Assembly (NCBI RefSeq): GCF_021129235.1
Contig: NZ_JAJOMA010000018.1
Span: 62,001 to 126,000, forward strand
DNA length: 64,000 bases
Direction: 5' to 3'
Origin: Kineosporia mesophila
GTDB lineage: Bacteria; Actinomycetota; Actinomycetes; Actinomycetales; Kineosporiaceae
Part shown: positions 10,926 to 14,215 of the stretch, piece by piece
Layout: each line of letters begins with the position of its first letter
How positions within the stretch are numbered: the first letter of the stretch is position 1
Made by a program: the position numbers and the translations under genes
Notes under the pieces: generated by a model
What the model was told of the DNA's origin: nothing
Seen by the model: only the letters and a program-made list of their open reading frames with translations
Database searches by the model: none

Positions 10926-11008
10926 CGTGATCATGCAAAACCTCCCCGACGTTCTAGAACTCTCCGGGCCATAGTTCTAGAACTCCGGGGAGGTTTTGCA
11001 TGATCACG
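10926..11008. repeat. 83-bp interspersed palindrome, copy 1
   Basis: Two 36-base arms (10926-10961 and 10973-11008), paired at 34 of 36 positions, around an 11-base loop. Arms begin CGTGATCATGCAAAACCTCC and end in GTTCTAGAACT. Three further 83-bp copies (24884, 44683, 52709) share nearly the same arms, while the loops differ. This copy lies between the divergent GNAT fusion gene and the nitroreductase gene, so it is not simply a 3'-end terminator. Confidence 0.92.
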
Positions 11009-11045: not shown

Positions 11046-11672
11046 ATGGAATTCGAGGACGTCGTCCGCGGACGACGGATGGTGCGCACCTACGACCCCG
11101 ATCGCCCCGTGGGCCGGGAGGTGCTGGGCCGGATCCTGGATCTCGCGGTCCGGGCCCCCAGTGCCGGGTTCAGCCAGGGGTGGGACTTCGTGGTGCTGAG
11201 CACTCCGGAGCAGGTGGAGCGGTTCTGGGACGCCACCGCGCCCGGGGAGGGCGAGGCGGACCGCTGGCTGCGCGGCATGCGCACGGCCCCGGCGCTGATC
11301 CTGTGCCTGTCCGACCGTGACGCCTACCTGGACCGCTACGCCGAGCCGGACAAGGGCTGGACCGACCGCGACGAGGCGCGCTGGCCGGTGCCGTACTGGG
11401 ACGTGGACACCGGCATGGCCTCGATGATCATCCTGCTGGCCGCGGTGGACGCCGGGCTGGCGGGCTGCTTCTTCGGGGTGCCGCCGGAGCGTCGTGAGGC
11501 GGTGCTGGAGACCTTCACGATCCCGGCCGGCCGGCGCATCGTGGGGGTGATCAGCCTGGGCCATCCCCCGGCCCCGGGCACCGACCGCCGGTCCCCGTCG
11601 CTGCGCCGGGGCCGCCGTGGTGTCGAAGAGGTCTCACATGAAGGAACTTTCGGGAATCCGTTCCGCCCCTGA
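11046..11672 (+). CDS. Nitroreductase family protein
   Basis: 208 residues with the FMN-dependent nitroreductase fold: an N-terminal RRMVRTYDPDRPVGREVL, the RAPSAGFSQGWDFVVL phosphate/FMN-binding segment, and VDAGLAGCFFGVP near the C-terminus. Family members reduce nitro groups, quinones or enones with NAD(P)H, and some are dehydrogenases in peptide natural-product pathways. ATG 11046 is chosen because conserved sequence begins there. The gene precedes the micro-ORF/ABC-exporter cassette by 127 bp; whether it belongs to it is unknown. Confidence 0.9.
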   Translation: MEFEDVVRGRRMVRTYDPDRPVGREVLGRILDLAVRAPSAGFSQGWDFVVLSTPEQVERFWDATAPGEGEADRWLRGMRTAPALILCLSDRDAYLDRYAEPDKGWTDRDEARWPVPYWDVDTGMASMIILLAAVDAGLAGCFFGVPPERREAVLETFTIPAGRRIVGVISLGHPPAPGTDRRSPSLRRGRRGVEEVSHEGTFGNPFRP

Positions 11673-11799
11673 GCAGTTCCCTGTCAATCCTGTCAGAGGT
11701 GACTACCAGGATTCCCGCCCGGTCCTGCCAGGAAGCACCGGCAGAGTTCTTCTCACGACAGCGAAACAGTCGCTGGCACAGCGAAGAAGGAGTTCCACC

Positions 11800-11913
11800 A
11801 TGGCGAGGATCCTGAAGGCCCGCAAGCGTCGCCCGGTCGAGAAGGTGCAGGAGCAGCCCCAGCGTCGGCCGGAGGACCGGGACAGCGGCCCCGCCCCCGA
11901 CCAGCGCGGCTGA
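11800..11913 (+). CDS. Micro-protein 1 of tandem basic family (37 aa)
   Basis: A 37-codon ORF with a strong ribosome-binding site (GAAGGAG about 8 bases upstream). Residues 1-15 read MARILKARKRRPVEK, nearly identical to the next ORF (one R/K change). The rest is Pro-, Gln-, Arg- and Asp-rich, with no Cys, no hydrophobic stretch and no membrane helix. Eleven Arg/Lys against six Asp/Glu make it basic. I do not recognise the family. The conserved N-terminus could be a leader, a nucleic-acid-binding tag or a protein docking segment. Confidence 0.75.
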   Translation: MARILKARKRRPVEKVQEQPQRRPEDRDSGPAPDQRG

Positions 11914-11957
11914 CCCGACCCGACCACACCGTAAACCCCACTCAAGGAGCAACAGTC

Positions 11958-12071
11958 ATGGCGAAGATCCTCAAGGCCCGCAAGCGCCGTCCCGTCGAGA
12001 AGCCGCAGCCGAAGAAGCGCCAGGACGAGCAGCAGCCGCAGCCGGAGCAGGGCCCCGCACCGCGGGACTGA
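11958..12071 (+). CDS. Micro-protein 2 of tandem basic family (37 aa)
   Basis: A second 37-codon ORF, 44 bp after the first, with its own AAGGAG. Its N-terminus MAKILKARKRRPVEK differs from micro-protein 1 only at residue 3, while the C-terminal halves diverge to a Gln/Pro/Lys-rich tail ending GPAPRD (GPAPDQRG in the first). Conservation at protein level with divergent tails indicates a real duplicated gene rather than chance. It is followed by a strong hairpin at 12107-12143. Function is unknown. Confidence 0.78.
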   Translation: MAKILKARKRRPVEKPQPKKRQDEQQPQPEQGPAPRD

Positions 12072-12106
12072 ACCGTTCGCTGACGCCGATCTCACCCTCG
12101 GCAGGC

Positions 12107-12143
12107 CGGGGCCGGTGGACACCTCAGGTGTCCACCGGCCCCG
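12107..12143 (+). terminator. Hairpin terminator or attenuator between micro-ORFs 2 and 3
   Basis: An 18-bp perfect stem (12107-12124 with 12126-12143) followed within a few bases by GGATTTT. It may end the micro-ORF transcript or attenuate read-through into the third micro-ORF and ABC exporter. Confidence 0.75.
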
Positions 12144-12273
12144 CCGGATTTTGCCGCCCGACCCGGAGAGCCGGTCAAAGACCGCTCCCAGCAAGCAATC
12201 GGCCACCGGTCAGGCAGCACCGGGAGGATCACCGGCGAGAGTGCCGCTGTCCCGAAACCCGAAGGAGCTCATC

Positions 12274-12318
12274 ATGGTCAAGGCCCCGCCAGCGCGTCAC
12301 CGGCGTGCAGTGACCTGA
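12274..12318 (+). CDS. Micro-ORF 3 (14 aa), truncated relative or leader peptide of the exporter
   Basis: A 14-codon ORF, MVKAPPARHRRAVT, with a good GAAGGAG about 7 bases upstream. Aligned without gaps to micro-protein 2 it matches at Met1, Lys3, Ala7, Arg8, Arg10, Arg11 and Val13, i.e. 7 of 14 positions, so it looks like a shortened member of the same family. Its stop lies 7 bases before the ABC exporter ATG, which has no clear ribosome-binding site of its own; translational coupling is likely. It could also be only a leader peptide. Confidence 0.55.
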   Translation: MVKAPPARHRRAVT

Positions 12319-12325
12319 TCCGCCC

Positions 12326-14215
12326 ATGACCACCACAGATTTCGACGACGACGGGACCGGGGACGACTCGGCCCGGCTGAGCTGGCCCGCGGTGCTGCGC
12401 CGGTTCTGGCCCCTGACCCGCGGCCGGCGCCTGGCCGTCGGGGCCGCGCTGATCTTCTACACCGCGGCCGTGACCGGCGACGCGATCGGCGTGGGGCTAC
12501 TGGCCACCCTGATCGACGGCGCGGTCGAGAACGGCAGCCTGGAAGAGTTCTGGCACCCGGCCGCGCTCTGGGCCGCCATCACCCTGGGTGCCGCCCTGCT
12601 CACCTACCTCGGTTCGGTGCTCACCGCGTCCGCCGCCGAGCGGTTCAGCCGGCGCCTGCGCGCCCGCACCCACGACCACCTGCTCACCGTGGCCCCCGAG
12701 GAACTCGACCGCCGGCGCCTGGGCGACGTGCTCTCCCGGGTGGTCGACGACACCGAGGAGGTGGAGCACCTGGTGGTCACCGGCCTGCTCGACGCCGCCT
12801 GCTCGATCCTGGCGGTGATCGTGTTCGGGGTGGCGGCGTTCCGCCAGAGCTGGCTGCTGGCCCTGGTGGTCGTCGCCGCGGCGCCCGTGCTCTGGCTGCT
12901 CAACCGCTGGCTGACCGGGCGCACCCACCAGGTCTCGATGCGCACCCGGGTCGCCCTCGGCGAGCTGACCTCGGCCCTGGAGCAGAGCCTGACCAACTCG
13001 GCCCTGGTGCAGGCCTACAACGGGCAGCGCAGCGAGCACAGCCGGCTGGCCACCGTCTCGGGCCGGCTGATGCGCGCCCGGCTGCGCCAGACCCGGCTGG
13101 CCGCGGTGCAGGGCCCGCTCACCGAACTCGTCGAGATGGGTGGGCTTCTCGCCGTCATCGGAATCGGTGTCTACGACATCGCCCGCGGCGAGCTGACCAC
13201 CGGCGGGCTGCTGGCCTTCACCGCGTACCTGACCTACCTGTACCCGCCGATCACCGCGGTCGGCCGGCTCGGCCTGACCGCTGCCTCGTCCGGCACCAGC
13301 GCGGCGCGGCTGACGGAACTGCTGGACCTGAAGCCCGCGGTGACCCCGGCCCGGGCCGACGGCGCCCTGCTGCTGCCCGCCCCGGCCCACCGGCCGGCCT
13401 CGACCGGGCCGCTGCAGTCGGGCCTGCTGATCGAGGATGTCACCGTGCACTCCCCCGGCCGGGCCGACCGGCTGCACGACGTGCGCCTGTGGATCCCGCC
13501 GGGAGCCCTGGTGATGGTGACCGGGCCGAGCGGTGCCGGGAAGTCGACCCTGGTCGAGCTGCTCGTGCGGTTCCGCGACCCGGACCGCGGGCGGGTGCTG
13601 CTGGACGGGCGCGATCTGCGGGACTATCCGCTCAGTGAACTGCGCAACCAGGTGACCCTGCTGCCCCAGGAACCCTTCATGTTCGACGAGAGCGTGCGGG
13701 AGAACATCACGTACGGCGTCGCCGACGATCCCGGCACCGGGGCGATCACCCGGGCCGCGCGGGACAGCGGCGCGGCCGAGTTCCTCGATCGGCTGCCCGA
13801 CGGCCTGGCCACCCAGGTCGGCCAGCGGGGCCGGGCCCTGTCCGGCGGGCAGCGGCAGCGGATCGCCCTGGCCCGGGCCCTGCTGCGGGAGGGACCGGTC
13901 CTGGTGCTCGACGAGCCGACCACCGGTCTCGACCCGGAGGCCGCCGGCCATCTGATCGGTACCCTGCGGCTGCTGACGGCCCGGGGCCGCACCGTGCTGC
14001 TCGTCACGCACGACCTGGAGCTGACCCGGCACGCCGATCAGGTGATCGAGCTGAGAGCCGGCCAGGTGCACCGCACGGTCGTGGCGCCCGAGGCCGCGAC
14101 CCGGCCGATCGATCAGGGGCGGCCGGGACCACACCGCAGCCGGGCCGAGCGCATCCGATCCGAACGCGCGCGTTCCCCCCGGACCGCGGTGGCCCGGGCG
14201 GGACTCAGAGAATGA
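12326..14215 (+). CDS. ABC exporter, fused membrane and ATPase domains
   Basis: 629 residues. An N-terminal six-helix exporter domain (about residues 30-330) is followed by an ABC ATPase with Walker A GPSGAGKST, signature LSGGQRQRIALARALL, Walker B VLVLDEPTTG and the H-loop LLVTHDLEL. No peptidase C39 domain is present, so it does not process a double-glycine leader. The C-terminus is a basic, disordered tail (RSRAERIRSERARSPR). Lying just after three related micro-ORFs, it may export or protect against a small product, though lipid, peptide and drug substrates are all possible. Its 3' end overlaps the convergent DUF456 gene by 11 bp. Confidence 0.92.
   Translation: MTTTDFDDDGTGDDSARLSWPAVLRRFWPLTRGRRLAVGAALIFYTAAVTGDAIGVGLLATLIDGAVENGSLEEFWHPAALWAAITLGAALLTYLGSVLTASAAERFSRRLRARTHDHLLTVAPEELDRRRLGDVLSRVVDDTEEVEHLVVTGLLDAACSILAVIVFGVAAFRQSWLLALVVVAAAPVLWLLNRWLTGRTHQVSMRTRVALGELTSALEQSLTNSALVQAYNGQRSEHSRLATVSGRLMRARLRQTRLAAVQGPLTELVEMGGLLAVIGIGVYDIARGELTTGGLLAFTAYLTYLYPPITAVGRLGLTAASSGTSAARLTELLDLKPAVTPARADGALLLPAPAHRPASTGPLQSGLLIEDVTVHSPGRADRLHDVRLWIPPGALVMVTGPSGAGKSTLVELLVRFRDPDRGRVLLDGRDLRDYPLSELRNQVTLLPQEPFMFDESVRENITYGVADDPGTGAITRAARDSGAAEFLDRLPDGLATQVGQRGRALSGGQRQRIALARALLREGPVLVLDEPTTGLDPEAAGHLIGTLRLLTARGRTVLLVTHDLELTRHADQVIELRAGQVHRTVVAPEAATRPIDQGRPGPHRSRAERIRSERARSPRTAVARAGLRE

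Follow-up and report, generated by a model that had tools for sequence, protein, structure and literature searches.

Short tandem reading frames linked to an ABC exporter in Kineosporia and other actinobacteria: a candidate cassette of unmodified peptides and a dedicated exporter

A 64,000-nucleotide stretch of Kineosporia mesophila DNA (RefSeq assembly GCF_021129235.1, contig NZ_JAJOMA010000018.1, positions 62,001–126,000 of the forward strand; hereafter the window, part of contig C10 in a genome of 7.78 Mb) carries two very short open reading frames (micro-ORFs) with nearly identical beginnings, followed by a strong hairpin, a third and still shorter ORF, and the gene for an ATP-binding cassette (ABC) exporter. 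Do the micro-ORFs encode a peptide product that the exporter moves out of the cell, or do they form a leader or regulator of the exporter? A first-pass annotation of the window had left both answers standing. The evidence presented here narrows the choice toward a peptide product, with an attenuator keeping real weight, and we favor, with moderate confidence, a two-part cassette consisting of unmodified peptides and a dedicated ABC exporter. The parts of the window locus are as follows.

11723–11799, + strand: conserved 5′ element (TCCTGCCAGGAAGCACCGGCAGAGTTCTTCTCAC...), ending in the ribosome-binding site AGAAGGAG and its spacer; 11 copies aligned from six genomes
11800–11913, + strand: micro-ORF 1, MARILKARKRRPVEKVQEQPQRRPEDRDSGPAPDQRG; 37 codons, net charge +5, one of 13 such ORFs in six genomes
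11958–12071, + strand: micro-ORF 2, MAKILKARKRRPVEKPQPKKRQDEQQPQPEQGPAPRD; 37 codons, net charge +6
12107–12143, + strand: hairpin identified by RNA folding, a 17-pair stem and then CCGGATTTTG; terminator-like separator between the peptides and the exporter
12274–12318, + strand: ORF 3 (MVKAPPARHRRAVT); 14 codons, good ribosome-binding site, present in G000 and G008 only
12326–14215, + strand: ABC exporter half-transporter; 629 residues, Pfam domains ABC_membrane and ABC_tran

The micro-ORF family in Kineosporia

The coordinates and sequences first assigned to the micro-ORFs, ORF 3 and the exporter proved right on re-reading. The products of ORFs 1 and 2 are identical at 14 of their first 15 residues, and codons 2–15 differ by four synonymous changes and one non-synonymous change. 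Both ORFs have good or strong ribosome-binding sites and a third-position guanine-plus-cytosine (GC) content of 0.95.

Only six of the 13 family genomes, those of the window's genus, match the exporter at E ≤ 1e-100, at seven places. It had been set beforehand as a test that micro-ORF homologues should stand next to the exporter in relatives of the window genome; they are present in all six same-genus genomes searched, one to five in each (2, 1, 5, 1, 2 and 2 in G000, G005, G006, G007, G008 and G009), and analogous micro-ORFs adjoin homologous exporters elsewhere. A profile built from these 13 peptides recovers all of them at E ≤ 7.6e-13 and nothing else in the family genomes better than E = 0.09. 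Third-position GC is 0.89–1.00 throughout, and M1, I4, K6, R8, R10, R11, P12 and one late R are invariant. Two tandem exporter copies in G006 each have micro-ORFs ahead of them, and in Kineosporia babensis JCM 31032 (G005) the cassette, with its micro-ORF and exporter still together, lies at a different locus behind a TetR gene. A pattern search of genome contigs led to one confirmed stretch out of 27, that of K. babensis.

Outside the genus, a search of 394 genomes of the class for the Kineosporia-type peptide gave one match in each of four other genomes (E = 0.006–0.009), all partial and inside longer frames, which we judged to be chance; viral contigs contained none. The peptides scanned had no convincing family among Pfam, NCBIfam, PHROGs and PDB sequences (best E = 0.079). 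Kinship to the arginine-rich N-type peptides of phages, with their nut sites, was considered, had no library match and was dropped.

The 13 peptides contain no W, F, Y or C, and their highest 12-residue Kyte–Doolittle mean is at most −0.58, so that no hydrophobic segment is present. Hydropathy and inspection by eye reveal neither a leader nor a signal sequence, and no double-glycine leader was seen by eye. The start block of these peptides (MAKILKARxRRP) is under selection: in Kineosporia the ratio of non-synonymous to synonymous changes per site (pN/pS) is 0.38 for codons 2–15 and 1.25 for the tail (12 pairs), and in a more distant genus, g42, discussed below, it is 0.42 for the start and 0.50 for the tail (all pairs of 21 peptides), the pairs being non-independent and the tail alignments gapped. 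A ratio near 1 had been proposed as grounds for rejecting the family; the Kineosporia tails show one, whereas Kineosporia codons 2–15 and the g42 peptides do not.

Linkage of micro-ORFs and exporter across actinobacterial groups

Homologues of the exporter in other actinobacterial groups are also preceded by tiny low-complexity ORFs. The 394 class genomes include 11, the window's own among them, with an exporter match at E ≤ 1e-110, and small low-complexity ORFs lie upstream in all 10 others. Genus g42 has the exporter at E ≤ 1e-100 in 36 of 150 genomes (52 places, 39–45% identity), and a second order, that of G327, has it at E ≤ 1e-90 in 31 of 150. By eye, a micro-ORF is found at all 67 exporters of the first set.

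Low complexity alone is unspecific and was dropped as a criterion, since it is also met with at 13 of 38 control exporters at a Shine–Dalgarno (SD) match of at least 4 (entropy < 3.4) and at 3 of 38 at SD ≥ 5. A charge rule (ATG start, 30–70 codons, SD match of at least 5, net charge of at least +7, within 1000 nucleotides of the exporter) is passed at 45 of 66 exporter loci, namely 28 of 34, 5 of the 7 from Kineosporia and 12 of 25 lower-scoring ones, and at none of the 38 controls. The 66 loci are all 59 distinct exporter matches listed, without the window's own, plus the seven from Kineosporia; the sets used for the exporter tree and the start motif number 67, adding L218. The controls are other PF00664 exporters of genera g42 and g1, not of the second order, picked from among the matches listed, before their letters were read. 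Six other rules run alongside passed no control in five cases and 1 of 38 in one. Many peptide types share a short start block (M[SA][FIL]xK[ILV]xP in many relatives), and a start motif is present at 52 of 67 cassette exporters versus 0 of 38 controls. Both criteria, charge and start motif, took shape once the first peptides had been seen, and the second order is the sole fresh test, of the charge rule. Of its 33 places, 28 were new loci that were read, three without a locus were left unread and two had been read earlier; applied unchanged, the rule passes 17 of the 28, or 24 of 28 at SD ≥ 4, and 27 of 28 have a micro-ORF by eye.

The linkage is reciprocal. A profile of 19 peptides of the K/P/A-rich type gave 35 matches in 21 of 150 genomes, 32 of which lie 89–933 nucleotides upstream of an exporter match (distances drawn on 42 of the 52 g42 exporter places). 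The other three are the tandem micro-ORFs of G538 (L199), which lie ahead of an exporter with an interrupted frame, through sequencing error or decay.

Could the micro-ORFs be chance products or annotation artefacts, given that GC-rich intergenic DNA yields many basic short ORFs? Arg codons are GC-rich, and the composition-only test picks up controls at the rates given above. No control passes the charge rule or carries the start motif, however, and the third-position GC of the 13 Kineosporia micro-ORFs, the deficit of non-synonymous relative to synonymous changes per site in codons 2–15 and the reciprocal linkage of peptide and exporter all stand against chance, which we regard as hardly credible, though it may apply to ORF 3.

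Peptide types and their inheritance

Several compositional types accompany these exporters. The K/P/A-rich type (MSFHKIAPVKK...) mostly ends near KRRPVxHK; g42 and the class also have Pro-rich (MSFKKLAPLPPKPK...), Arg-rich (MSFRKVFPRRRR...) and Lys/His-rich (MSFAKITLAKKAKKK...) peptides, and further types are Gly/Arg-rich, Asn/Pro/Arg-rich and His/Asp/Gly-rich (MAIFSDLFPAKHRD...). The last of these starts MAIF..L.P, is hardly cationic and belongs to seven exporters of a lower-scoring clade (L131, L132, L135, L136, L138, L140 and L118); its composition suggests metal binding. Peptides of the second order (L257–L284) are Trp/Arg/Cys/Gly-rich, many with a WWW end, and Nonomuraea gerenzanensis (NZ_LT559118.1) has the exporter with a Trp/Arg/Cys-rich micro-ORF. 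The absence of Cys remarked on in the first-pass annotation thus applies to the 13 Kineosporia peptides and not to the wider set. Tandem micro-ORFs number up to five (L120), and several types can coexist in one genome, as in G486.

With its 11 labels mapped on a tree of 67 exporters, peptide type requires 10 changes, the fewest possible, and none of 200 shuffles is as low; one label, ‘none’, later proved to be the His-rich type (seven exporters), and the labels were kept as first set. In the same tree the N. gerenzanensis exporter groups with two of family f25 (support 100/100). The agreement of peptide type with the tree shows that the parts are inherited together; it is no demonstration of function.

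Two further observations concern the surroundings of these cassettes. In K/P/A-type g42 loci (L120, L127, L129, L089 and others; 19 aligned) a near-invariant block, CCGTArTGTTTTCCATGTCGAAAGCGAAC, precedes the first micro-ORF; its internal ATG is kept in 16 loci and replaced by GTG in two and by TTG in one, and the block is possibly a leaderless start or a transcription start. A TetR-type regulator gene adjoins the cassette in 4 of 10 protein-scanned neighborhoods (L069, L142, L145 and L148).

Hairpins and possible ribosome-mediated attenuation

The strong hairpin reported between ORFs 2 and 3 is real: positions 12096–12160 fold at −48.8 kcal/mol (z = −6.5, with none of 200 shuffles as good). 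Its 17 pairs are followed by TTTT, and a consensus terminator scan, which needs five T, was negative. Several g42 hairpins lack a T run, so that termination at these structures is only something we infer. In a survey of 95 loci, from which L092 and L264 were dropped for lack of a pattern match, the region after the last micro-ORF reaches z ≤ −2 in 84 of 93 (median −4.0), versus 0, 7 and 7 of the 38 control exporters in 80-nucleotide windows at three offsets. Nine g42 loci have tandem micro-ORFs, and in every one the hairpin comes after the last ORF, at −41.8 kcal/mol or lower; of the 14 gaps between these ORFs, three reach z ≤ −2, all weakly, and none is lower than −20.3 kcal/mol. Four Kineosporia loci also hold a strong hairpin in 4 of 7 gaps between micro-ORFs.

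This arrangement brings in the main rival to the two-part cassette, attenuation by a leader peptide. A ribosome stalled by an antibiotic in a basic, proline-rich micro-ORF would block the hairpin and permit read-through into an exporter that pumps the drug, the peptide itself having no further job. The best perfect stem begins a median of 16 nucleotides past the micro-ORF stop (93 loci), a distance that a ribosome positioned on that stop could span. All 13 Kineosporia peptides contain K6-x-R8-x-R10-R11-P12, and macrolides are known to arrest ribosomes at basic-x-basic motifs; in addition, their codons 2–15 are constrained and their tails are not. The order of a co-directional small ORF with a coding signature, a terminator-like hairpin and a multidrug-resistance-type ABC transporter resembles bmrB-bmrCD of Bacillus subtilis, where antibiotic induction requires translation of bmrB and its terminator (PMC4191407). 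In that system the terminator lies within a single ORF and the transporter is encoded by two genes, whereas the cassette has one to five ORFs, a hairpin past the stop and one half-transporter gene.

Other features fit attenuation poorly. Up to five tandem micro-ORFs share one strong hairpin after the last in g42, and in Kineosporia, where 4 of 7 gaps have a hairpin of their own, 11 of 13 micro-ORFs also have their own 5′ element. A common start block is joined to very different tails, the g42 tails are themselves constrained, and the exporter has extra acidic residues (below). We consider attenuation rather unlikely, though far from negligible.

The exporter

As the first-pass annotation had it, the exporter has no C39 peptidase domain: a Pfam scan places only ABC_membrane, ABC_tran and an AAA_21 match overlapping ABC_tran above cut-off. 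It is MsbA-like by profile and falls below the NCBIfam family cut-off in the best 25 of 203 families matched. Its ATG at 12326 has no SD sequence of its own and lies 7 bases past the ORF 3 stop, another point of the annotation that is borne out.

The membrane helices (TM) of the window exporter contain acidic residues at D52 in TM1 and at E267 and E270 in TM5. Cassette exporters as a group carry more of these than the 38 controls (3.0 versus 1.45 in TM1; 2.0 in Kineosporia and 3.15 in the others versus 0.63 in TM5), with Mann–Whitney p values of 1.3e-3 and 1.8e-13 against controls for the sum over six helices, the helix boundaries used for counting being approximate. The acidic excess fits a cationic cargo.

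The 5′ element and a possible intracellular role for the peptides

The 5′ element, about 77 nucleotides long, precedes 11 of the 13 Kineosporia micro-ORFs, ORF 1 among them; the two that lack it (window ORF 2 and one in G006) come right after another micro-ORF. A model of the element (R1) gives 11 strong matches, all at the cassette, and its other matches in the 13 family genomes have E ≥ 0.1, except for one weak copy. That copy (25 bits; L012, G009 C1:317339–317413) lies directly before the exporter gene with no recognized micro-ORF between them.

A structured RNA was entertained for this element and set aside. Single folds look good, and the proposed structure has 80% of cells paired versus 28–48% in slid versions, but it was derived from the same sequences. 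Shuffling gives covariation no support (189, 218, 245 and 82 of 500 shuffles reach the observed values, and 31 of 500 do so for cells paired), and helix 2 is out of register in those rows of the alignment that have insertions. A search of Rfam for a leader RNA returned 11 matches up to E = 10, the best at E = 0.53, all judged to be chance.

The element is relevant to a second rival, in which the peptide stays inside the cell, binds RNA, DNA, the ribosome, a metal or the exporter, and regulates a neighboring exporter that moves another substrate such as a lipid or drug. Arg-rich and Lys/Pro-rich compositions like those of the peptides are common in nucleic-acid binders, the 5′ element before 11 Kineosporia micro-ORFs could be the target, and the exporter is MsbA-like by profile, although below the cut-off of that family. 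No single target, however, fits types that differ in composition as the Gly-, Trp/Cys- and His-rich ones do, and shuffling does not support covariation in the 5′ element; we think such a microprotein improbable.

Neighboring genes and ORF 3

Three related micro-ORFs had been proposed at the window locus. The relationship holds for ORFs 1 and 2 and is doubtful for ORF 3, which matches the basic motif at 7 of 14 positions, and has a third-position GC of 0.71 in the window. Its one recurrence is in the sister genome G008 (0.64), and motif scans did not pick it up in the remaining four genomes of the genus. From its sequence, ORF 3 is probably not a family peptide, and it is probably a re-initiation ORF or a remnant that serves translation of the exporter.

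A nitroreductase had likewise been noted just upstream.

11046–11672, + strand: nitroreductase-family gene, a neighbor placed outside the cassette by its distribution in the family genomes

It does adjoin the cassette in the window. As a tailoring enzyme or cassette part it was rejected: 12 of the 13 family genomes have it, six of which lack the cassette, and in K. babensis it is on contig C7, whereas the cassette is on C23. No modification enzyme for a ribosomally synthesized and post-translationally modified peptide (RiPP) was recognized by Pfam or NCBIfam among the window's neighbors. Pfam likewise recognized none in 20 neighboring proteins (two without any family) taken from eight g42 and f25 neighborhoods, K. 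babensis (TetR only) and G538 (one protein). A lanthipeptide or other enzyme-modified RiPP was rejected on these grounds.

By eye, the window also has an inverted repeat between a GNAT/coenzyme A-ligase gene and the nitroreductase, with 23-nucleotide arms (CGTGATCATGCAAAACCTCCCCG and its reverse complement) at 10926–10948 and 10986–11008, 37 nucleotides apart.

Comparison with known exported peptides

Aureocin A70 and garvicin KS are leaderless cationic peptides, several per operon, with ABC transporter machinery. For aureocin A53 and its Actinomycetota relatives, short cationic leaderless peptides are described beside ABC transporter machinery (PMC11580447), and such leaderless bacteriocins of Actinomycetota are the nearest known product type. 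The cassette shares with class IId leaderless bacteriocins the absence of a leader or signal and an ABC exporter beside the peptide. It differs in that the 13 Kineosporia peptides do not have the Trp-containing, amphipathic composition of that class, lacking Trp, Phe, Tyr, Cys and any hydrophobic stretch, with low-complexity tails and no family match; a Trp/Arg/Cys-rich type exists elsewhere.

The absence of a C39 domain separates the exporter from those of double-glycine bacteriocin systems. With MsbA/Sav1866-type half-exporters it has domain order and sequence family in common, and its position below the NCBIfam cut-off and the extra acidic residues in TM1 and TM5 set it apart. In composition the peptides mirror the Pro-rich, Arg/Trp-rich, Gly-rich and His-rich classes of animal antimicrobial peptides; unlike these they are bacterial, have no demonstrated homology to them, have a start block common to many types and are linked to an ABC exporter. 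Among the matches listed in searches of open-licence PubMed Central full text, a scope that leaves subscription papers and preprints outside, we found no account of these cassettes.

A model for the cassette

We favor peptides with a dedicated exporter because tandem copies in g42 have the hairpin after the last, the start is constant while the tails vary, constraint in g42 extends over the whole peptide and the exporter is acidic. In this model, one to five disordered, mostly cationic peptides of about 30–70 residues, lacking both leader and signal peptide, would be carried out of the cell by the dedicated half-size ABC exporter. The exporter would recognize the short, type-specific conserved start block (MAKILKARxRRP in Kineosporia, M[SA][FIL]xK[ILV]xP in many relatives), and the fast-changing, low-complexity tail would act outside on an anionic target (membrane, teichoic acid or nucleic acid) or on a metal. 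Most transcripts would end at the hairpin after the last peptide gene, leaving peptide in excess over exporter, and the window exporter would probably be translated by re-initiation after ORF 3. An antimicrobial or surface-active function is our first guess for the peptides.

Several points weigh against this model. (i) The order of micro-ORF, hairpin and exporter is also that of a ribosome-mediated attenuator. (ii) Adjacency and a shared tree would equally fit the co-inheritance of any leader–gene pair. (iii) The pN/pS of 1.25 in the Kineosporia tails, judged from sequence, would indicate relaxed or fast evolution. (iv) Charge is not universal, since the His/Asp/Gly-rich type of seven exporters is hardly cationic, and acidity does not track peptide charge, since the exporters of that clade have the acidic membrane residues as well (4.0 in TM1 and 2.0 in TM5). 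(v) There are fewer acidic residues than in controls in TM6, and in TM3 of the non-Kineosporia cassette exporters. (vi) One second-order locus, L264, showed no micro-ORF.

Implications

That the pieces of the cassette have been kept together across distant groups suggests an overlooked kind of exported peptide. As a tentative extension, which we put forward as possible rather than expected, the cassettes may represent a widespread, undescribed class of unmodified, low-complexity, mostly polycationic actinobacterial peptides, each type with its own acidic-lined ABC exporter. They would be a bacterial parallel to the animal defence peptides that are rich in Pro, Arg/Trp, Gly or His, sharing a short tag for export while their tails diversify freely.

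Should the peptides prove to be exported, actinobacteria would have in them a supply of short, charged, unmodified and gene-encoded peptides that has drawn little notice and is easily missed because of the small size and low complexity of the ORFs, and the exporter clade would provide a genomic handle for finding more. If they are instead attenuators, the cassettes would constitute a switch of wide occurrence that senses the ribosome and controls an ABC pump, operated by leader peptides of extreme composition.

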